Source of the DNA: Pseudomonadota bacterium
GTDB taxonomy: Bacteria; Pseudomonadota; Alphaproteobacteria; Rhizobiales; Aestuariivirgaceae
Assembly: GCA_963205315.1 (NCBI GenBank)
Contig: CAUJIO010000069.1
Coordinates: 62,001-126,000 of the forward strand
Length of the DNA stretch: 64,000 bases
Direction: 5' to 3'
In this document: positions 5,551-42,072 of the stretch, piece by piece
Numbering within the stretch: the stretch's first letter is position 1
Layout: each line of letters begins with the position of its first letter
Notes under the pieces: model-generated
Seen by the model: the letters and a program-made list of their open reading frames with translations, nothing else
Databases searched by the model: none
Told to the model about the DNA's origin: nothing
Position numbers and translations under genes: made by a program

Positions 5551-6639
5551 ATGGCCGAAGCCCGCATTCATTCCAATCCGGCGTGGGATCGTGTTTCAGT
5601 TGCCAGCCAGGACATCGGCCGCAAGGTCATGCGCAACGCAATGGACACAAGCATGGAGCCGAGGCGCGCCGCGTTTCGTCCGGTCAGCCGAGCAGGCCTT
5701 ATCGTCAATCCGAGCTCTGGCAAGAATAGTGGCAAGGGTCTGGCACTGGCCGACAGGATCCGCCACGATCCGTCGATCACCGTGCGTATTCTGGAGCGCT
5801 TCGATCAGATCACGGGGTTCATCGACGACATGGCACGCGACGATGTCTCTGACCTGTTCATCAGCTCAGGCGACGGTACGATCCAGGAAATCCTGACCCA
5901 GATTGCCGAGCGAAAGCCGTTTCGGCTGTTTCCACGCTTGTCCCTGTTGCCGCATGGCACCACCAACCTGACGGCCGCGGATCTGGGGCTGCGCCACCGT
6001 TCGATCACGGCACAGGCCGAGTTCATTCGGGACGTCAGACTGAATACGATGCGCGACCGGCCGACCATCCGTTGCGCCAATCCGGGCGACGGCAGGCCGC
6101 GCCACGGCATGTTCGTCGGCACCGGCGCCGTTGCCGCGGCCACGCAATTCTGTCAGGAGGCCTTCAATTCCAAGGGCGTGAAGGGCAACTGGGCAACGTT
6201 CGCAACGCTTGCGAGTGCCGTATCGAAAACAGCATTCTCGAAACCAGACCCGACAGACCACACCCGCCTCGACCGGCCTTTCGATATTGCCATTGATGCC
6301 GATGGTCAGCGATATGCAGATGGTCAGCAATTGCTTCAGATGTCGACAACGCTCGACACGCTGATCCTTAACACGAAACCATTCTGGGGCGGAAAGACGG
6401 GCCCGATCCGCACAACCGTGTTTCCCTATCCGGTTCCATCGGTCTTCCGTTGGCTGCTGCCGATGATGTATGGCGCCGAAACACGCAAGGCACCGGAAGG
6501 TGCCATGAGCTTCTGTTCGGAAAAGCTGCAGATCACGTCGAGTTCGATGTTCGTCATCGACGGTGAGTTTTTTGCTCCGCCTGCAGACGAACCGCTTGAA
6601 CTGCAGACGGGTCCGGTCTTCACGTATCTTTGCGGGTAA
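5551..6639 (+). CDS. Diacylglycerol-kinase-family lipid kinase (ceramide kinase candidate)
   Basis: This 362-residue protein has the DAGK/sphingosine-kinase catalytic fold: GLIVNPSSGKNSGKG near residue 50 as the nucleotide-binding opening, then SSGDGTIQE, a variant of the GGDGT signature with serine for the first glycine, then LLPHGTTNLTA and a C-terminal FVIDGEFF block. Such enzymes phosphorylate a lipid hydroxyl using ATP. ATG at 5551 is chosen because GAAAGGA lies just upstream; the frame opens 12 codons earlier. It ends 6 bp from the end of the convergent serine palmitoyltransferase gene. With ceramide biosynthesis on both sides, ceramide or sphingoid base is a reasonable substrate, and diacylglycerol is the main alternative. 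Confidence 0.78.
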   Translation: MAEARIHSNPAWDRVSVASQDIGRKVMRNAMDTSMEPRRAAFRPVSRAGLIVNPSSGKNSGKGLALADRIRHDPSITVRILERFDQITGFIDDMARDDVSDLFISSGDGTIQEILTQIAERKPFRLFPRLSLLPHGTTNLTAADLGLRHRSITAQAEFIRDVRLNTMRDRPTIRCANPGDGRPRHGMFVGTGAVAAATQFCQEAFNSKGVKGNWATFATLASAVSKTAFSKPDPTDHTRLDRPFDIAIDADGQRYADGQQLLQMSTTLDTLILNTKPFWGGKTGPIRTTVFPYPVPSVFRWLLPMMYGAETRKAPEGAMSFCSEKLQITSSSMFVIDGEFFAPPADEPLELQTGPVFTYLCG

Positions 6640-32583: not shown

Positions 32584-34284
32584 TCAGGCCAGCACACCGG
32601 CATATTTCAGCATGTTGGCGATGTCGTCGATCGGTGCACCATTCGCCAGCTTCAAGGGACTGGCGGATGGCGTCCACTCACCATGCTCGGCATGGAGCAT
32701 GGAACTCCTGTCTGCGAGCAGGAGCCCCAGAAGGGTCTCGGCGACGATGGCACCCGCCGTCGGCCCGAGCGCCTGCCCATCAGACCTCAACCGCGCTTCG
32801 CACAGGAAATAGAACCAGGCAGGCGTCCGCTCAAACAGTTCGGAGTTATCTGCCACCAGCTCCGGCCCAAGTCCGCTGATCCCGGGGCGGTAGTCACCAT
32901 CGCCCATGAAAATGGATTGCAGTTCCGTCTTTTCCAACCGCGGAATGCCGAGCGCCTTTGCCAGTTCCTGCCCGCTCGCGATGAAGCGGTGATAGCCTCG
33001 CCGCAGATTGCGATAGGCGATCGCCTTAAGTCCGGCATCAACCTTCATGTCCGGAATTCTGCCGGGCAACGACGACATCTCGGCTGAAATGACCGGATCG
33101 ATCTTGTCCGCGGCCGTGGCTTGCGGACCAACAGCGATGAAGCGGCGCCAGTCGATCACCCAGGTCTCGGGCAACTGCTCCGGCGGGACCGTCCGCGGAA
33201 AATCCAGCGGATCCATGCCCATGCCGCCGGGCGACGTGAAATTGAAAAGCTGTGTGAGGGTAGCAGGACCTTCCCTGCCGCCAGTTGAGAATATCTCGTT
33301 ATAATTGTAGCGCTTGCTCACCATCGAATGGCCAAACCGGAACGCCGCCGATGTGAATTCCAGCGGCACTTTGCCAGGTTCGATCAGGAAGCCCTTTGGT
33401 GCCGATGGCGCATGGGGTGCAATTTTCGGCAGGTAGTCCTTCAGGATGCACCATTGATAGTGCCAGCGCACCAGATCGCGAGCTGCCGCAAACGTCTGCT
33501 CCGGAGTTGCGCAACGTGGGCGCAGAACGTCGACCACCCTGTTGTGGAAGAGCATCAACGCCAGATGCAACTGGCTGAGGATCAGGTTTTCATCATTGCG
33601 GCGGTCGGCGATGAATGTGATGCCGTTCTTGGTGTCACGCTGAAGATCGAAGGGCAAGGCGCCGCGCGCGGCGAAGCTGCGGCGTTCTGCGTCCGTCATG
33701 TTCTCGACCGGCGAGACTCTGGCCAGCGCGAATTTCATTCCGTCTGCGGCATAAATCGGCTTTCCACCGGCTCGCTGCTCCGCTGGTCCACCGCCATAGA
33801 GACTGTTCAGCTGCATTGGCAAGGGATGCAGATTGATCAGGCTTTTCACTACAAGCTCGCTGCTTGGCGCCCGCTGTACTGACATCAGCGCAACGAGATC
33901 GGGGTTGTTTTCGATGACCGATGGCTCGATCAAGGCGCGGTCTTCGATCTTGTCGATGCTCATTTTGGTGAGCGAGCGAAACCCAGGCGTACCGGCCGGC
34001 GCCGATATGTCATGATTCAGGAATTGTCCGAAATAGGTATAGATCGCGGGAAGGCGTGATGGACGGGCCGTTTCGAATGCCGAGGCAACGTGATCCATCG
34101 CTGCAGCGAGGCTATTCAGCATCGCAAAGCTTGCACGGTCCTTCTCTTCGCCGCGCACGGCTTCTGCGCGCGCGAGATGCGGCAGCATGTAGCAATATTT
34201 GCTTGTGGTCACCGCGTGGGGTGCATCCTCAGCAAAGCCGACGGTGCCGTGATCCAGATTGATGTTGCTCACGAGAGGTTCCAA
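32584..34284 (-). CDS. Animal-type haem peroxidase
   Basis: This 566-residue protein has hallmarks of the peroxidase-cyclooxygenase (animal haem peroxidase) family: the distal histidine in YFGQFLNHDIS (about residue 108), HNRVVDVLRP, VRWHYQWCILKDYLPKI and the proximal histidine in AFRFGHSMVSKRYNYNEIF. No signal peptide is visible, unusual for secreted peroxidases. Members oxidise halides, phenols or fatty acids with peroxide. It starts 9 bp after the end of the YcaO gene, so the two are one transcript. In this setting the substrate may be a peptide or protein (inference). Confidence 0.87.
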   Translation of the reverse strand: MEPLVSNINLDHGTVGFAEDAPHAVTTSKYCYMLPHLARAEAVRGEEKDRASFAMLNSLAAAMDHVASAFETARPSRLPAIYTYFGQFLNHDISAPAGTPGFRSLTKMSIDKIEDRALIEPSVIENNPDLVALMSVQRAPSSELVVKSLINLHPLPMQLNSLYGGGPAEQRAGGKPIYAADGMKFALARVSPVENMTDAERRSFAARGALPFDLQRDTKNGITFIADRRNDENLILSQLHLALMLFHNRVVDVLRPRCATPEQTFAAARDLVRWHYQWCILKDYLPKIAPHAPSAPKGFLIEPGKVPLEFTSAAFRFGHSMVSKRYNYNEIFSTGGREGPATLTQLFNFTSPGGMGMDPLDFPRTVPPEQLPETWVIDWRRFIAVGPQATAADKIDPVISAEMSSLPGRIPDMKVDAGLKAIAYRNLRRGYHRFIASGQELAKALGIPRLEKTELQSIFMGDGDYRPGISGLGPELVADNSELFERTPAWFYFLCEARLRSDGQALGPTAGAIVAETLLGLLLADRSSMLHAEHGEWTPSASPLKLANGAPIDDIANMLKYAGVLA

Positions 34285-34293
34285 GTCTGATGG

Positions 34294-35388
34294 TTAAAAT
34301 GGTTCGAGCTTCTCGAAATCAGCGACTTCTCGAGAACCGCCGAACTCCGGGTGAAGAGATGCGAAGTCGAGTATGCGGGAAGCGTTGAACCGGCCTTGCA
34401 TGGCGCTGTAGCCGGGAACGATCACGCGCATGACATGCAACCAGTTTTGCTGCCGTGTGATATCCGCGACAAGCACACTGTGCCCGGCTTGGGCGACACG
34501 CTCCAGCGCATGCACACGCGGAAGCCCGTGCAAATCGCTTCGTCCGGCAGGTTGAAATTGGACCATGTCCAAAGAAGCGCCGTCGATCCAGGTTGTGAAG
34601 TCCTGATCGGAATGTGTCGAAGCGGAGTCCATTGCGACTTCGGTCTGGATCATTTCCGTGATGGCCCTGATGGCCGCACCCCGCAATGATGAACCTGCCG
34701 CCGAGCCGATAGCGATGTGCCGTCCGGCTGAATTCGCTGATACAGCTGCAACGACGTACGCCGCTGCCGAAGGCGAGACATCAACCAATAGTGTCCGGCG
34801 ATCGCGGCCTGAAAGCCACCACGACAGCCGCGGCTCGACGTCATCGAGAATCGCCAGAGGAAGATGTGGCCTCCGCTGCCGGCCGTACCACCAGGTCGCC
34901 AGGGCATCGCGCTCGACAATTTCCAAGAGCGCCTGGAGCATCGCACTTTGCTGCGTCAGACCGGCGGCACAGCCGTTGCTGTTGGCGTCGACGACGGGCC
35001 GTTCGCCATGAACTGCCGCCCAGTCGAGATAAACGTCCTGCGCCGGAATGAATATCCTCTGCCCCGTTATCGCATTCCCGAGTGCGACATGCGCAAGTCC
35101 ATCGCGCATTTCCAGGTCATTGGCCTCCGGCGCCGCGTTTTGCGCAAGGCTTGCGGTCAGTTCCACCGCCTCGCCGACCGCCGATGACATCGCCAAGGCC
35201 GGCGACAGGCCACGCCCCGAAGGAATTCGCGGCTTCAAACCAGTGGCATGGGCATCACGCGGCAGAGCAACTGTCAGAAAGACCGGACAATCCGTCAGAT
35301 CAACAGGATGAAAAACAAACTCGGTTTCGAGACTGCGCTGCGCAAATCTAAGATTTTCTGTCCAATCCGCCATGTTGGAAGTGAACAT
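34294..35388 (-). CDS. YcaO-domain protein
   Basis: This protein of about 364 residues is a stand-alone YcaO domain. GRGLSPALAMSSAVGEAVE matches the first ATP/Mg motif except that the usual ER ends as EL; DANSNGCAAG then ALLEIVERDALATWWYGR match the second; AAIRAITEMIQTEVAM matches the third, keeping Q but not the following arginine. YcaO enzymes use ATP to activate backbone amides for azoline, thioamide or amidine formation. No E1-like partner or dehydrogenase is present; a haem peroxidase follows instead. The frame opens with GTG at 35418; ATG at 35388 or 35373 is also possible. Confidence 0.82.
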   Translation of the reverse strand: MFTSNMADWTENLRFAQRSLETEFVFHPVDLTDCPVFLTVALPRDAHATGLKPRIPSGRGLSPALAMSSAVGEAVELTASLAQNAAPEANDLEMRDGLAHVALGNAITGQRIFIPAQDVYLDWAAVHGERPVVDANSNGCAAGLTQQSAMLQALLEIVERDALATWWYGRQRRPHLPLAILDDVEPRLSWWLSGRDRRTLLVDVSPSAAAYVVAAVSANSAGRHIAIGSAAGSSLRGAAIRAITEMIQTEVAMDSASTHSDQDFTTWIDGASLDMVQFQPAGRSDLHGLPRVHALERVAQAGHSVLVADITRQQNWLHVMRVIVPGYSAMQGRFNASRILDFASLHPEFGGSREVADFEKLEPF

Positions 35389-35497
35389 CACGCCCGCGCC
35401 CCATTCAAGCACGTTCACGCGGCTCGCAAACTCGTTTCACGCTGAAATCACGATAGCCGGGCCATCATCATGTTGCAGCGAATGGAGAGGAGACATC

Positions 35498-35875
35498 ATG
35501 GCGTTCATCAAGCTCGCATCGAGCAACCCGATGGAACAGAATGAAACCGGAATCAAGATCATCCAGGTGAGCGAAACGGCCTTCAGCGACCAGCCGGGTT
35601 GCGAATGGGCGAAATTCGAGAGCGACCGCCGCGGCTGGCTCTATGCCCACGGTTATCGTTGGTGCAATGCGGATGGCGACTGGATTGGCGACGGCCACAT
35701 CCCGGCGGAGATAGAGATCGTGCCGGTCTACGACACTCCGACCCGCATGCATGTGCGCATCCCATGGAAGGGCGACATCGCGCAGATAAAGGGCAAGCCT
35801 GTCGAGAACGAGCCGTCCTACGAACACAAGTTTCCAATCCTCCTCGCCCGGTATTTCATGCGGAAATGCCGCTGA
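35498..35875 (+). CDS. 125-residue protein of unknown family beside YcaO
   Basis: This small protein starts at ATG 35498 with GGAGAGGA eight bases upstream, a strong site. It has five tryptophans, three cysteines (35, 56, 124) and a central aromatic- and glycine-rich block RRGWLYAHGYRWCNADGDW followed by IGDGHIPAEIEIVPVYD. I recognise no family. It is divergent from ycaO (about 110 bp apart), so co-regulation is likely, and its end overlaps the BTAD regulator's end by 20 bases. It could be the YcaO substrate, an immunity-type partner or an accessory protein. Confidence 0.7.
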   Translation: MAFIKLASSNPMEQNETGIKIIQVSETAFSDQPGCEWAKFESDRRGWLYAHGYRWCNADGDWIGDGHIPAEIEIVPVYDTPTRMHVRIPWKGDIAQIKGKPVENEPSYEHKFPILLARYFMRKCR

Positions 35876-37925
35876 TATCCCCCTGCAGTCCGGCGGCGTG
35901 ATGCCAGGCTTTTGCCCTCTCAAGTCCTGCATCGAGCACAGCCTTACCGGGCTGCCACCTGATGGGAACGGCCATTTCGAGCCAAATGCGGATTTTCTCC
36001 CAATCCGGCGTCGAAATGCCTTCCCATCTTTTTTTGATCAATGAAAGAAAGCCGTCGAAAGCCTTCACCGCTTCGTCGCGATGTCCCAGCATTGCATGTG
36101 CAGCGGCGGCCCAGGCCCGCATTTCCGGAAACACATCGCCCGATCGCGCCAGCGCTGAAAGCGTGCCTGCATAGTCTCCATGCAAATAGCGGATCGCCGC
36201 CAGATAGCCCGAAAAATAATCCGGATGCAGCGGATTGAGCTGCAGGGCCGTTTCGGCCCATTTCCGCGCTTGATCGAGCTGTCCCAGGAATGCGGATTCC
36301 ATCGCGCTAGCGATGAGCGATTCGGAATCGAACGGATTGAGCTCGACGGCAAGTTTGAAATGCGAGTCAGCCCGTTCCGGCGAATTGTGCATCAGCCAAC
36401 TCCAGGCGAGGCTGAGATGATTGCGTGAATCGAAGGGATCGAGCGCCAATGCCTTCTGCGCCAGTTCGAAGCCTTTCTGGATATCCTCGTCCATCGGGCG
36501 CCCCGGCCGCACCATGCCTTGCGTCATCACCAACGAGGCGAGACTGGCATAGGCGCAGGCCAGTGACGGATCACGATCGATGGCAAGCTGGAACAGGCGG
36601 CGGGCCTCGATGTCGTCGGTACTCGACCACGCGCGCGACAGTTGATGCCCTTTCAGCCAGTAGTCATAGGCTTCGCTATCCGCAGGCTTCTTGCGGGCGA
36701 AGCGCAGGAGTGTGATGTGGTTGATGCGCGAAGCCAGTTTGGAGGAAATGGCGCCCGCCACCGAACTGCTCATTGATTGCAGTTCGAGGTCGGACACGCT
36801 GAACACATCCGACCAGACTTGACTGCCGTCAGTGCAATCGATGAGAGACACAAACAGCTTGCCCTGCGTGTCCCGCCAGTCGAGCACTGTATCGATGGTA
36901 TAGTCGGCGCCGACCGCTGCCTTGAGTGCGGAGTAGTCAATGCGGATGTTGGAATCAAAACCGCTGCTGGGCCATGACAGCATGATCCAGCAGCGAAATC
37001 GCGACATGCAGACCTTCAGCAGATTGGCGAAGCCTTCCGACAGATATTCGCGGCTTTCATCGGCGGACCGTGTCAGCGGCGGGCGGATGGCGAGGCGCGG
37101 CACCCCGCCTTGCGGGATGGGCAGCACCACCGGCATTTCCGCCGTCAGGGGCATAACCTCTGCTGCAACCGCTGGCGATGCGGTCAGCAAATCACCTCGC
37201 TTGATGGCGACAAGCAGATCAATTGATTCCTGTGAGGGATCGCTGTCCAGCTCATCGGCAAGCTGCTTGCTCAGTTGCGCATACTGCCGCAGAGCGCCCG
37301 CCATGTCTCCCCTCGCGGCGTGGAACCGCATGAGATACTGATGGGCAAGCTCATGACTTGGCTCGATGCGCACCAGCTCTTCCGCGATATCGGGAGAAAA
37401 ATAATCGGCCTTCCGCAGCATGAACTGGAGATGATCGGTCAGCAGGTTGGAGACCTTGCTACGGACGTGGAGCCGTTCGACCTGAACCCAGGCTTCGAAC
37501 ACGGGTGCCGAAGGTACGGCATCGCCGAACAATTCGCCTTGCCACAGCCGCGCCGCCGCAACCGCGGCATTTCGGTCGGCTTTTGCCGCGGCCACCAGGT
37601 TCAGCAGAGTTCTTGCGTCGATCTCAAGATTTTCCAGACCAACTGTCACATCAAGGCGGGACGCAGAAATCAGCTCCTCGGCCTGTTCGCCCAATATGTC
37701 ACGGATTTCCTTGAGGCATTGGCGAAGCGAAGTGCGCGCCATTTCCTCCGGTGCCGGGTCCCACAGGAAAGAAGCCAGCTTCTCGCGGCTGATCTTTCCA
37801 TCCGGTGACAACGCCACCAGGCCAATCAGGCACCGCGCCTTGCGGGACCGGAAATTCACCTCTTCCCCGGACCCGCCATGGAACAGCCGGCAGCCACCCA
37901 GAAGATTCAACTTGAAGCGTGCCAA
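35856..37925 (-). CDS. BTAD/SARP-like transcriptional regulator with TPR repeats
   Basis: This 689-residue protein has an N-terminal winged-helix region (FRSRKARCLIGLVALSPDGK, about 25-90), a BTAD-type helical domain (about 100-240), then a TolB/adenylate-cyclase-type alpha-beta segment (PRLAIRPPLT to SLIDCTDGSQVWSD) and about five C-terminal TPR-like repeats. Proteins of this shape activate specialised loci in actinobacteria (SARPs) and occur in rhizobia. The start is TTG at 37925. It is adjacent to the YcaO locus and is the obvious candidate regulator. No kinase or ligand domain was recognised beyond these. Confidence 0.8.
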   Translation of the reverse strand: MARFKLNLLGGCRLFHGGSGEEVNFRSRKARCLIGLVALSPDGKISREKLASFLWDPAPEEMARTSLRQCLKEIRDILGEQAEELISASRLDVTVGLENLEIDARTLLNLVAAAKADRNAAVAAARLWQGELFGDAVPSAPVFEAWVQVERLHVRSKVSNLLTDHLQFMLRKADYFSPDIAEELVRIEPSHELAHQYLMRFHAARGDMAGALRQYAQLSKQLADELDSDPSQESIDLLVAIKRGDLLTASPAVAAEVMPLTAEMPVVLPIPQGGVPRLAIRPPLTRSADESREYLSEGFANLLKVCMSRFRCWIMLSWPSSGFDSNIRIDYSALKAAVGADYTIDTVLDWRDTQGKLFVSLIDCTDGSQVWSDVFSVSDLELQSMSSSVAGAISSKLASRINHITLLRFARKKPADSEAYDYWLKGHQLSRAWSSTDDIEARRLFQLAIDRDPSLACAYASLASLVMTQGMVRPGRPMDEDIQKGFELAQKALALDPFDSRNHLSLAWSWLMHNSPERADSHFKLAVELNPFDSESLIASAMESAFLGQLDQARKWAETALQLNPLHPDYFSGYLAAIRYLHGDYAGTLSALARSGDVFPEMRAWAAAAHAMLGHRDEAVKAFDGFLSLIKKRWEGISTPDWEKIRIWLEMAVPIRWQPGKAVLDAGLERAKAWHHAAGLQGDISGISA

Positions 37926-38137: not shown

Positions 38138-38295
38138 TATCTCGCGCAAGCTATTTGGGCGTCATACCGGTGGATAGTCCCGCCGTCCATTCTGGCGCGA
38201 ACACAGGACTGGTACGGTGAAAAATAGATATACGCTGCAGCGGCGATCACGATCGCCGCTGCAATAATCAGCCCCATCTTAACTTGCTCGCTCAT
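38128..38295 (-). CDS. 55-residue membrane microprotein in the transposon
   Basis: A frame starting MSEQVKMGLIIAAAIVIAAA has one membrane helix (about 7-25), then YFSPYQSCVRA and a C-terminal AQIACARYSN. Its ATG overlaps the transposase stop (ATGA), so it is translationally coupled to it, and its stop falls in the terminal repeat. Two cysteines lie on the far side of the helix. Function is unknown; the coupling and its fit to the element end argue that it is a real part of the transposon. Confidence 0.6.
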   Translation of the reverse strand: MSEQVKMGLIIAAAIVIAAAAYIYFSPYQSCVRARMDGGTIHRYDAQIACARYSN

Positions 38296-39176
38296 GCCGC
38301 AGATCCCTTTTTCTTGTATGTCTTAGGGCGGCCTGGCTTAGGCGCAATCTCATCCATCGCCGCGATGATTTCTTCCCACGTCCAAAGGCGGTCGGTCAAT
38401 CCAGTCGCTATCGCAGGCGTAACGCGAAGGCTCTTGTGAATGCGGACCCAGTTATACCAGACGGTCCATATCGCCACCATGTGAACGTGGCTCTCGAACT
38501 TCTTTGAGAAGGCGTTCGTCAGGCGGGTGAAGCGGCGATTATGCATCCGCATGGTGAGGTTGGACCGCTCCACGTAGGACGTGCTGACGTGCTTGGGGTC
38601 CGGCTCCCCCTCAATACGGTGCTTCTGTGTGCCGATGCACTCAGCCGGGCTATACTTGCCCTTGGCGCTCTCCGGGGCGGCGCCGTACACCTTGTGAAGC
38701 ACGGCATAGTCAACATCACCCCCGAACGCGCCCTCGACGGCCTGTAGGTAAGCCTTGTGGCCGTCTGTCGTCAGTTGAACCCGGTTCTCAATCCGCGACC
38801 GCAGGTCATCCATGAATGCGATGGCATATTCGCCGTCACGGTCACCCACCAGCCATGAGACAATGAGCTTCGTGTCGGCCTCGATGCCCGTCCAGGTCCA
38901 TGTGTCGCCCGCCCCATAGACAGGGTTCTTCATGGCGGCAACGTTCTTCTGCTTGGCAGCGGTGAAGCTCCAGATTTCGTCACACTGCACCCGGTTCACC
39001 TTCACACCGCGCACCTTGTCGTCATGGAATGCAGCGCAGAACTTGCCCGCGTCGATTAGCAGCTTGGCGACGGTGTTGATGCTCACATCTGCTAGCCGGG
39101 AAACCGACCGCATGGACGATCCCTCGCAGAGCATGTTGAGCATTTGGGCGCGAACTTTTGGGGGCAACTTGTTCAT
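38292..39176 (-). CDS. IS1-family transposase
   Basis: This 294-residue transposase has an N-terminal helix-turn-helix (GSSMRSVSRLADVSINTVAKLL) and a DDE domain: D in VQCDEIWSF, D in TTDGHKAYLQ and E in YVERSNLTMRMHNRRF. The C terminus is basic (RPKTYKKKG). These features fit the IS1-type group common in Alphaproteobacteria. ATG at 39176 is preferred because the upstream 13 codons look spurious. Frame and catalytic residues are intact, so the element could still be active. Confidence 0.88.
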   Translation of the reverse strand: MNKLPPKVRAQMLNMLCEGSSMRSVSRLADVSINTVAKLLIDAGKFCAAFHDDKVRGVKVNRVQCDEIWSFTAAKQKNVAAMKNPVYGAGDTWTWTGIEADTKLIVSWLVGDRDGEYAIAFMDDLRSRIENRVQLTTDGHKAYLQAVEGAFGGDVDYAVLHKVYGAAPESAKGKYSPAECIGTQKHRIEGEPDPKHVSTSYVERSNLTMRMHNRRFTRLTNAFSKKFESHVHMVAIWTVWYNWVRIHKSLRVTPAIATGLTDRLWTWEEIIAAMDEIAPKPGRPKTYKKKGSAA

Positions 39177-39274
39177 GCCCATAATATATGAACTTAAATG
39201 CTTGCTAGCAAGCATTATTTTCGGTCTTTATTTGTTAACAATTCATACATAAATGGAAAAAGGGAGTATCGCTC

Positions 39275-39499
39275 ATGACCGATTTGCCAGTTACCAAGAT
39301 GTTTTTGGAAATGATCGCACAGGGCCATTTCAAGCCCGTGGTGCATATGGAAGAAATGCGCCTTCCAGGCGAATTTGTCGCCACTCCGGCCATTACCACC
39401 TATGGTACCCCTGACATTCCGATTCGTAATGGGGTTTACGGTAATGCCAAATTGGGACAGCGTTCTGAAGGAAATTTCTCAGTTACAGATTACTTCTAA
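39275..39499 (+). CDS. Possible 74-residue passenger protein
   Basis: A frame beginning MTDLPVTKMFLEMIAQGHF has a good ribosome site (AAAGGGAG, about 10 bases upstream) and an ordinary composition. Its last 56 bases overlap the protease gene in another frame. It could be a small leader protein coupled to the protease. No family was recognised. Confidence 0.4.
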   Translation: MTDLPVTKMFLEMIAQGHFKPVVHMEEMRLPGEFVATPAITTYGTPDIPIRNGVYGNAKLGQRSEGNFSVTDYF

Positions 39500-40394
39500 C
39501 GAATCTGCTTTCGATAAAGCTCGGCGGAAATATCTTAAGCGGCTCTACAGCCATACAGGCAGAAACGTTATTGCCTACTACTCAGGATTTCTAAGTAAGC
39601 CGCGTTTAGAAGGCATAGAAATCAATGATGAAGACAAGAATGGCTTCATGCTCTGCATTCACGGTCTAGACCGCAGTAAAGGTCTAGATGTGATTCTTCA
39701 TACTCCAGGCGGTGATGGTCAAGCCACAATTTCATTGGTCGAATATCTTAGAAGCATGTTTGGAAATGACATGCGAGCGATAATCCCACAAATCGCAATG
39801 TCGGCGGGAACAATGATTGCGTGCTCATGTAAAGAGATTGTCATGGGGAAGCAATCAAGCTTGGGGCCAGTCGATCCGCAGTTCGGCGTAATCGGCGCAG
39901 CAAATCTTCTTGAAGAAGTTAAAAAGGCCAAGGCAGACATAGCCTCCAACCCTAACCTTGCAATGTTTTGGGGGCCTATTCTGCAAAAAATTACGCCATC
40001 TTTTCTTGAGCGCTGCGAATGGGCAGTAGCAGATTCAAACGAGTTTCTGGACACAACACTTCGGCAAAATATGTTCGCAAATCTTAGCGAAGAATTGAGG
40101 AATCAGAGAACTGAAAGTGTGAAATCTAGCTTTGCAAACAACGAAGGCAGGGCTCACAATACCCATATTCAGTATGCGAAATGCCTTGAGGCAGGACTAA
40201 ATGTTGCGCGTCTTGAGAACGATCCCACATTGCAAGACTTGGTGCTAACAATCCACCACTGCTACATGCACACTCTGAGCAACACAGCGGCTTTTAAGGT
40301 CATTGAAAATCATTTGGGCAAGGCAATGGTCAGGCAGCAGCAAGTGCAATACATGGCCGCTCCAATGTCACTTAGTGCGGGCGGCCCATCGTAA
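39444..40394 (+). CDS. SDH-family Clp-fold serine protease (transposon passenger)
   Basis: This 316-residue protein belongs to the SDH/SppA-related Clp-fold proteases. MPNWDSVLKEI then ARRKYLKRLYSHTGRNVIAYYSGFL is the family N terminus; ILHTPGGDGQATISLVEYLR forms the oxyanion region; the expected nucleophile is Ser in IPQIAMSAGTMIACS, and QSSLGPVDPQFG follows. There is no signal peptide, and a single soluble domain is predicted. ATG at 39444 was chosen because the family pattern starts there, although the frame opens at 39375. Codon use is AT-rich compared with the chromosome. Confidence 0.82.
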   Translation: MPNWDSVLKEISQLQITSNESAFDKARRKYLKRLYSHTGRNVIAYYSGFLSKPRLEGIEINDEDKNGFMLCIHGLDRSKGLDVILHTPGGDGQATISLVEYLRSMFGNDMRAIIPQIAMSAGTMIACSCKEIVMGKQSSLGPVDPQFGVIGAANLLEEVKKAKADIASNPNLAMFWGPILQKITPSFLERCEWAVADSNEFLDTTLRQNMFANLSEELRNQRTESVKSSFANNEGRAHNTHIQYAKCLEAGLNVARLENDPTLQDLVLTIHHCYMHTLSNTAAFKVIENHLGKAMVRQQQVQYMAAPMSLSAGGPS

Positions 40395-40948: not shown

Positions 40949-40967
40949 TTCAAACTGAGACACTACC
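40949..40967. repeat. Right terminal inverted repeat (19 bp)
   Basis: Exact reverse complement of 38119-38137. It now supplies the last five codons and stop (GSVSV, TGA at 40950-40952) of the interrupted EamA gene. Confidence 0.92.
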
Positions 40968-41834
40968 CTGTGTCAGGATCTGGAGAAACACGACACTCAG
41001 CATGATGAGGCTTGCCCCGGCAATTGCCATGCCCGGCATGGTTTCGCCGAGAAAATAGGCGGCACTGCACGCGCCGAATATGCCCTCCGCACTGGCGATG
41101 ATCGCTGTTGCGGTGGCAGATGTGTGCTGCTGTGCAAAGGCCATGAGGAAATAGGGTAGCGCCTTGGATATGAGGCCCATCATCAAGAGCTCCGGCCAGG
41201 CCATGATGATTGATCCGATGCTGTTGCGTTCAAAGATCAGGGCCATGGCGAAGCACAGGGCGGCGCTGATCAGAAATTGGACGACCGTCATCCGGCTCGG
41301 ACGGCCGTAGCGCAGCACCAGCCGGCTGTTGAGCGAAATGCTGAACGCGAACAGCACTGCCGCCAAAAGGCAAAACCCATCGCCCCACGCCAGCGCAGTC
41401 AGCGAGGCCCCGCCCATCAACCAAACGCCACCCAGCACCAGCAGGATGGACGGCAGCACCGCCGCTGATGGCCGTTCGCTCAGGATGGCCCACGCTGCAA
41501 GCGGGGTTATCACCGTGCAGGTGTTGACGAGGAAGCCGGCGTTCGACACCGAAGTGCCGCCATAGCCGATCTGCATCGAGGCGACCGACGCACCGAACAT
41601 CAGGGCGCCAAAGATGATTTCTCGGCCGCTCGGCCCAGGCACACCTTTCTCGACGTGCGCTGCCGGACCCTCGAGCCTCACCAGCGGGGCAAGAGCGAAA
41701 GCCCCCAGCGCCAGCGTCAGCGCCGTCGCCATCAACGGTCCCATGTGTTCGAGAATTGTCGTCTGAGCGACATTGCCAAGCCCCCACAGGGCGGCGGCCA
41801 GCAAGACGATCAAATGCGCCCGCTGGCAGGTCAT
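40950..41834 (-). CDS. EamA/DMT-family transporter, C terminus replaced by the transposon
   Basis: This 294-residue inner-membrane protein has ten predicted helices in two EamA repeats, opening LIVLLAAALWGLGNVAQTT and with SEGIFGACSAAYFLGETM in the second repeat. DMT transporters usually export metabolites. The last helix (GMAIAGASLIMLSVVFLQIL) is intact; the next residues, TQ then GSVSV, come from the host gene and the terminal repeat. The original tail of about 32 residues is stranded at 38015-38118. Because all helices remain, function may persist. ATG at 41834 is preferred over 41885. Confidence 0.82.
   Translation of the reverse strand: MTCQRAHLIVLLAAALWGLGNVAQTTILEHMGPLMATALTLALGAFALAPLVRLEGPAAHVEKGVPGPSGREIIFGALMFGASVASMQIGYGGTSVSNAGFLVNTCTVITPLAAWAILSERPSAAVLPSILLVLGGVWLMGGASLTALAWGDGFCLLAAVLFAFSISLNSRLVLRYGRPSRMTVVQFLISAALCFAMALIFERNSIGSIIMAWPELLMMGLISKALPYFLMAFAQQHTSATATAIIASAEGIFGACSAAYFLGETMPGMAIAGASLIMLSVVFLQILTQGSVSV
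40968..40975. repeat. Right 8-bp target site duplication
   Basis: CTGTGTCA, identical to 38111-38118, directly outside the right inverted repeat. Confidence 0.85.
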
Positions 41835-42072
41835 GTCTGTCCACCCCGCGACAGATGCAGAACAACAGTGGCCAGCGCCTTGCACATGATCGAACCCCGC
41901 CTCTCACATCAACCCACACGGGAGCAGAGCCCAGCAGGCGTGAGGGCGGCGTGACGAACGCGTGAATTCGACAGTCTCCGCGCGAACGCGCCCGGAAACT
42001 TGTCGGACGCCGAGTTTGCTGCGGTATGTGAAGATCGGCCGGCGGCCGGGAGAAAAGCGCTGACCGACGGTA

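Follow-up and report, generated by a model that had tools for sequence, protein, structure and literature searches.

We examined a 64,000-nucleotide stretch of an alphaproteobacterial genome (contig CAUJIO010000069.1; hereafter "the window"), in which genes for a stand-alone YcaO protein and an animal-type haem peroxidase lie side by side, together with genes for a small protein and a regulator. A preliminary description, made from the letters alone, had reported a YcaO gene followed 9 bp later by the peroxidase, a divergent 125-residue protein without a known family, and an adjoining SARP-like regulator. It had proposed that these form an undescribed pathway that either makes something like a ribosomally synthesized and posttranslationally modified peptide (RiPP) or modifies a protein. 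The list of open reading frames (ORFs) and the Pfam families bear out this gene content: 9 bp separate the YcaO stop from the peroxidase start, Pfam assigns the small protein no family, and the regulator carries BTAD and tetratricopeptide repeats (TPRs). The features of the block are as follows (NHLP, nitrile hydratase-like leader peptide; aa, amino acids).

32584-34284, minus strand: animal-type haem peroxidase (566-aa ORF, TTG start; Pfam An_peroxidase, E = 1.5e-13)
34294-35418, minus strand: stand-alone YcaO (374-aa ORF; Pfam YcaO, E = 3.1e-40)
35437-35452, minus strand: predicted SARP operator CGTGATTTCAGCGTGA, an 11-bp direct repeat in the shared precursor/YcaO promoter
35498-35875, plus strand: 125-aa predicted RiPP precursor (substrate protein) with a possibly NHLP-like body and a conserved C-terminal core
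35831-35872, plus strand: predicted core FPILLARYFMRKCR, with Tyr119 at 35852-35854 and the penultimate Cys124 at 35867-35869
35856-37925, minus strand: SARP-like regulator with BTAD and TPRs (689-aa ORF; Pfam BTAD, E = 1.1e-12)

The likely ATG of the 125-aa gene is at 35498, and YcaO probably starts at an ATG at 35373, as its homologues suggest. The small gene points away from YcaO and toward the regulator gene, whose end it overlaps by 20 bp (35856-35875).

Spread and predicted shared regulation of the YcaO-peroxidase pairing

Does this arrangement recur in other genomes? When 84,980 species genomes were searched at the protein level, a single close locus emerged (L031, in a metagenome-assembled genome of Pseudorhodobacter), where the regulator, a 126-aa gene, YcaO, and the peroxidase keep the order and orientations of the window. 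A profile of the small protein matched 3 of the 37 genomes of the window's genus, and the two besides the window (L035 and L036) hold the whole block; identical gene order is thus found in four genomes (the type-A blocks). Identities to the window by tblastn are 38-39% for the peroxidase, 37-43% for YcaO, 42-48% for the small protein, and 49-55% for the regulator. The four-gene block is thus old, patchily distributed, and preserved intact.

On a wider scale, in a sample of 297 genomes of the order, 68 had YcaO relatives. Of 40 such sites whose surroundings we fetched, most lie next to a BTAD-TPR regulator, and at 17 there is in addition a peroxidase that belongs to the subfamily of the window enzyme. 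These order-sample loci, peroxidase-centered searches of the class and phylum, the four type-A blocks, and plasmid CP023455 (L057) together gave 33 YcaO-peroxidase loci in Alphaproteobacteria. At the four peroxidase matches fetched from outside the class (L094-L097), YcaO linkage was absent. The preliminary description had tied its proposal to the recurrence of YcaO-peroxidase neighbors and of a conserved small gene; the linkage does recur, and a small gene is present at all 33 loci. The locus is not an isolated one but part of a broad alphaproteobacterial YcaO-BTAD family, some members of which have recognizable NHLP precursors.

Among 14 linked loci, pairwise YcaO distances are correlated with peroxidase distances (Mantel r = 0.83, permutation P = 2e-4), and the distances of both are correlated with those of the regulator (r = 0.81). 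In the YcaO tree the peroxidase-linked loci form a few clades, not one, which indicates that the peroxidase was gained or lost more than once.

SARPs typically bind direct repeats spaced by one helical turn (11 bp; PMC4393881). The predicted CGTGATTTCAGCGTGA operator is conserved in all four type-A blocks, and its extended pattern is absent from shuffled windows. A scan of 31 loci gave 28 CGTGA pairs with 11-bp spacing, and no other spacing tested gave more than 6; 24 of these 28 pairs are close to the start of a regulator, precursor, YcaO, peroxidase, or exporter gene. Genome-wide there are 11 such pairs, of which three belong to the YcaO-peroxidase cluster. The regulator therefore combines a BTAD domain with an 11-bp direct-repeat predicted operator at promoters, as expected of a SARP/BTAD protein; its N-terminal DNA-binding domain matches Trans_reg_C weakly (15 bits, below the cut-off). 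It resembles the Streptomyces SARP/BTAD regulators in its BTAD architecture and 11-bp operator repeat (PMC4393881), but differs from them in its CGTGA repeat, its long TPR C-terminal half, and its alphaproteobacterial host. We propose that it would activate both divergent transcripts through the 11-bp-spaced CGTGA repeats.

Many peroxidase relatives, including most matches in the class sample, occur on their own, as would be expected if YcaO modified a housekeeping protein and the peroxidase were an unrelated oxidative-stress or hypohalite enzyme that became its neighbor by chance. Set against the 33 linked loci, the co-variation of distances, the shared predicted operators, and a dedicated small gene that is always there, such a nonbiosynthetic origin is highly improbable. 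The conservation of the block in four genomes and of the pairing in 33 loci shows that the association of the two enzymes is not a chance one. We also rejected the possibility that YcaO is a plain housekeeping gene, given the conserved small gene and the operators.

Individual loci show further variation. A second haem peroxidase gene stands beside the cluster in L091 (12011-13855), and a ring-hydroxylating oxygenase of apparent Rieske type (assigned by eye from the sequence) adjoins YcaO in L051 (5663-6988) and L123 (8200-8832), where it may be a further tailoring enzyme. In L093 (10710-11133) YcaO survives only as short fragments in different frames next to a peroxidase, precursor, and regulator that look intact, which suggests a decaying copy.

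The small protein and its C-terminal end

What might the two enzymes act on? The slot beside YcaO was always filled, in the loci examined, by a protein of about 95-200 aa. The window protein ends in LLARYFMRKCR, and 10 of its last 14 residues are invariant across four homologues whose overall identity is 43-51%. At all 33 peroxidase loci an adjacent ORF of 115-200 aa has a Cys within its last five residues, nearly always the penultimate one; among 191 control proteins of the same loci, a Cys occurs in the last two residues of 4 and in the last five of 8. A candidate precursor with a Cys core thus adjoins the YcaO gene throughout, although the 33/33 count carries a selection bias for some loci: the precursors of L037, L057, L068, L069, L073, L101, L117, L120, and L126 were picked by their C-terminal Cys, and independent tests of the rule come from precursors that were identified through homology of the body or were called as genes by the gene caller. 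The end takes the form Tyr-x4-Cys-x in 27 of the 33 loci. At the exceptions, position -5 from the Cys is Phe (L057), His (L069 and L073), or nonaromatic, either aliphatic or Thr (L037, L038, and L101).

The precursors of the peroxidase loci belong to several families: the window's own and, at most of these loci, one with the end R-[VI]-[GA]-D-Y-[TS]-x-x-x-C-x (the DYT family). Other ends are KRCR, TKCR, RRCR, TRCR, and, in one family, HLIRSCASC. In all of them the last or the next-to-last residue is a Cys. The type-A family is rare: a search of 385 genomes of the class matched the window alone; plasmid searches found no relatives of the small protein. Searches of Pfam, NCBIfam, and the PDB gave it no match (chance-level hits only in the PDB), and its AlphaFold model (predicted local distance difference test [pLDDT] 37) is too poor for judging the leader fold. 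Since the core is conserved between genera, whereas NHLP cores are mostly variable, a fixed product seems likely from the sequences. A conserved, nonhypervariable core points tentatively to a constant role, for example as a signal, a cofactor, or a metal ligand, rather than to an arms-race antibiotic.

NHLP-type RiPP precursors are recognizable in the same slot of eight peroxidase-free YcaO-BTAD loci in a first batch and two in a second; the family matches of these sister-locus precursors are weak to moderate, and the best two (NF038399, 7e-7; TIGR03793, 1e-6) are both below the curated cut-offs. The window protein itself matches neither TIGR03793 nor NF038399. In profile comparisons with hhalign, its family scores 30.0 against the NHLP profile, whereas none of 150 column permutations exceeded 20.0, and the DYT family scores 29.8, with permutations reaching at most 17.0. 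The window pattern F-x-x-D-x-x-x-W-L-x-x-x-G...VYDT-x-x-x-MHVRIPW aligns to F-R-x-D-P-x-x-Y-L-x-x-A-G...HEDD-x-x-T-V-H-L-V-L-P of NHLP. These alignments are suggestive of a remote relationship between the window family and NHLP. With its C-terminal Cys core, this remote similarity, and an operator shared with YcaO, the small gene looks like a precursor and lends support to the RiPP-like or protein-modifying pathway envisaged in the preliminary description.

Three YcaO-BTAD loci with a Tyr-x4-Cys precursor ending in DYTIAVCT (L109, L110, and L113) may have lost their peroxidase or have it elsewhere in the genome. Tandem NHLP-like genes occur in three peroxidase-free YcaO clusters (L056, 9194-9957; L108, 8445-9254; L115, 9107-9847), in all of which the first gene alone keeps an internal GxC(Y/F) core; they are possible two-component precursors.

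The two enzymes and a proposed maturation pathway

The nearest solved structures to the window YcaO are the YcaO domains of TruD (95.6 bits), LynD, and MusD, with E. coli YcaO (51 bits) and MJ1094 (49 bits) more distant, and this proximity favors azoline chemistry. Its ATP/Mg-binding residues (E83, E86, E166, E169, R170, and E255) are kept in at least 30 of the 33 aligned sequences. The peroxidase, whose nearest solved relatives are peroxinectin A (6erc) and lactoperoxidase, is related to the peroxidases of human white blood cells. Aligned to peroxinectin A, its distal Q87, H91, and R229 and proximal H319 are invariant in 33 of 33 loci; it shares these Gln/His/Arg and His residues with lactoperoxidase and myeloperoxidase as well. 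It differs from the mammalian enzymes in its linkage to YcaO and in its haem-ester positions, which are not conserved (at the sites that match the mammalian acids, N90 is Ala and E232 is Asp in most loci). Its AlphaFold model (pLDDT 29) is too poor for fold comparison.

Which partners accompany these enzymes? ThcOx/SagB-type flavin oxidases adjoin YcaO in five other loci (L040, L043, L044, L045, and L055); none of the 33 YcaO-peroxidase loci has a ThcOx-type oxidase, and none of the five ThcOx loci has a peroxidase. A flavin azoline dehydrogenase, an optional feature of the YcaO RiPP class that makes azolines (thiazole/oxazole-modified microcins [TOMMs]), is accordingly missing from the window locus. 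No TfuA partner appears among the Pfam names of the neighboring genes scanned. We considered and rejected a TOMM E1-like C protein encoded elsewhere, as TIGR03882 has no match anywhere in the genome; RiPP systems with a stand-alone YcaO are known (PMC4603692). One of the ThcOx loci, L040, encodes a 120-aa precursor beside its YcaO-ThcOx pair (5611-5973), whose GCRGCRGCGG repeat core resembles linear azole peptides; it is an ordinary TOMM cluster and serves as a contrast case.

Taken together, we consider it probable that the block is a RiPP-type (or dedicated protein-modification) cluster, with the 125-aa protein as precursor, YcaO acting at its penultimate Cys, and the peroxidase as oxidative enzyme. 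The gene content, its conservation, the co-variation, the intact catalytic residues, the C-terminal rule, and the repeats are observed here; we infer that the small protein serves as substrate, and likewise the azoline step, the target of the peroxidase, and export. The 125-aa protein would be a ribosomal precursor composed of a folded, NHLP-related leader and a short core ending in Tyr-x4-Cys-x. YcaO would phosphorylate the backbone amide before Cys124 and most likely close a thiazoline, and the peroxidase would carry out a second, oxidative step, either turning the thiazoline into a thiazole, a reaction usually left to a flavin oxidase, or oxidizing Tyr119, five residues upstream of Cys124, possibly with cross-linking toward the Cys. 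The two targets fit about equally.

The thiazoline is suggested by the exclusion of flavin oxidases from peroxidase loci. If the peroxidase took over the job of the ThcOx/SagB enzymes, the two oxidases would be expected never to occur together, as is the case in the loci examined; the kinship of YcaO to azoline formers and the existence of loci without the Tyr would also be accounted for. This role is a tentative one, however, as it has no precedent in the literature searched, at least eight YcaO-BTAD-NHLP loci have neither oxidase, and the ThcOx loci form one clade. Tyr119 fits as the target because the Tyr-x4-Cys spacing is kept in 27 of 33 loci, and the Tyr at -5 is common to the window family and to the DYT family, which looks unrelated to it. 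Animal-type peroxidases oxidize phenols, and at peroxidase-free loci the NHLP precursors have no such Tyr. A tyrosyl radical might then couple to the Cys or heterocycle over four residues to form a Tyr-Cys macrocycle, with YcaO supplying only an azoline or another backbone change. We can put this forward with no greater assurance, because the Tyr is replaced by an aliphatic residue or Thr in L037, L038, and L101 and by His in L069 and L073, is kept in L109, L110, and L113 with no peroxidase in the fetched stretch, and correlates with the peroxidase in a way that is confounded by common descent.

Several points weigh against the RiPP-type pathway as a whole. Its chemistry and product are predictions from the genes. 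The nine precursors chosen by their C-terminal Cys illustrate the rule and do not test it, and 5 of 33 loci have His or no aromatic residue at -5. Single-sequence NHLP comparisons for the window family are mixed, with 0-10 of 67 decoys scoring as high. The cluster encodes neither a RiPP recognition element (RRE) nor an E1-like C protein that could recognize the leader. Finally, the peroxidase is not obligatory, since L109, L110, and L113 have YcaO, BTAD, and a Tyr-x4-Cys precursor in stretches that, as far as fetched, contain no peroxidase.

How does the system compare with known ones? The closest solved YcaO domains are those of the cyanobactin enzymes TruD and LynD, but these carry E1-like/RRE domains, and the window block is without a PatA/PatG-type protease or ThcOx. 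The bottromycin-type stand-alone YcaO and the TfuA-YcaO thioamide systems likewise have a YcaO without an E1-like C protein; the window block differs in having no TfuA and no bottromycin-like gene set, and its YcaO resembles the azoline clade more than it does MJ1094, the YcaO of a methanogen. The Mpr system (MprC, MprD, and MprE), an NHLP/proteusin azole RiPP, has a nitrile hydratase-like folded leader, to which the body of the window protein may be remotely related, and, as proposed for the window, a YcaO acting on Cys of a C-terminal core and a separate oxidase; its YcaO bears an RRE and its oxidase is a flavin enzyme, in contrast to the short YcaO with no RRE seen, the haem peroxidase, and the single near-terminal Cys of the window (PMC12455567).

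YcaO RiPPs, NHLP leaders, and SARP regulators are known, so "undescribed" does not hold for YcaO RiPPs as such; it does hold for the peroxidase partnership and the precursor families, which are apparently new. The open-licence literature searched (subscription journals and preprints lay outside its scope) contained no description of a YcaO with a haem peroxidase as partner oxidase or of these precursor families beside one. We see an even chance that these loci represent a distinct, widespread alphaproteobacterial RiPP class, in which a structured precursor ending in Tyr-x4-Cys-x-COOH is matured by YcaO and an animal-type haem peroxidase to an azole or a Tyr-Cys cross-link, the first such peroxidase to act as a dedicated peptide maturase. 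If so, the myeloperoxidase superfamily would join the tailoring enzymes of ribosomal peptides, the combination of YcaO, peroxidase, C-terminal Cys protein, and CGTGA repeats would be a handle for genome mining, and the block would provide a compact system for cell-free tests.

Exporter and flanking DNA

Beyond the regulator gene, the window contains three further features that bear on the extent of the cluster.

38292-39215, minus strand: IS1-type transposase, an interruption outside the pathway (Pfam DDE_Tnp_IS1 at the cut-off; drop in GC content to 0.525)
40950-41885, minus strand: EamA-family exporter, the probable fifth gene (Pfam EamA; likely ATG near 41834)
41939-41965, plus strand: triple CGTGA repeat with 11-bp spacing, upstream of the EamA exporter

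In L031 and L036, orthologues of the exporter with 42% identity sit immediately upstream of the regulator; in the window the insertion sequence (IS) separates the two genes. The exporter thus probably belongs to the cluster, cut off by the IS insertion, and would probably release the small product. An exporter of metabolite type, not a peptide ABC transporter, also suits another scheme, in which the C-terminal dipeptide region is built up, cut off, and exported by EamA as a small metabolite, with the small protein mostly a recycled carrier; the position of the penultimate Cys at the very end and a core that is conserved rather than hypervariable are compatible with it. Such a scaffold role is unlikely, however, as the block has no protease, ligase, or tRNA-dependent enzyme, and of the four type-A loci just two have the exporter next to the regulator, with the window copy displaced.

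A gene for an SDH-type ClpP-like serine protease (39375-40394) adjoins the IS insertion in the low-GC stretch (38-40 kb, GC 0.525) and is probably part of the inserted DNA.

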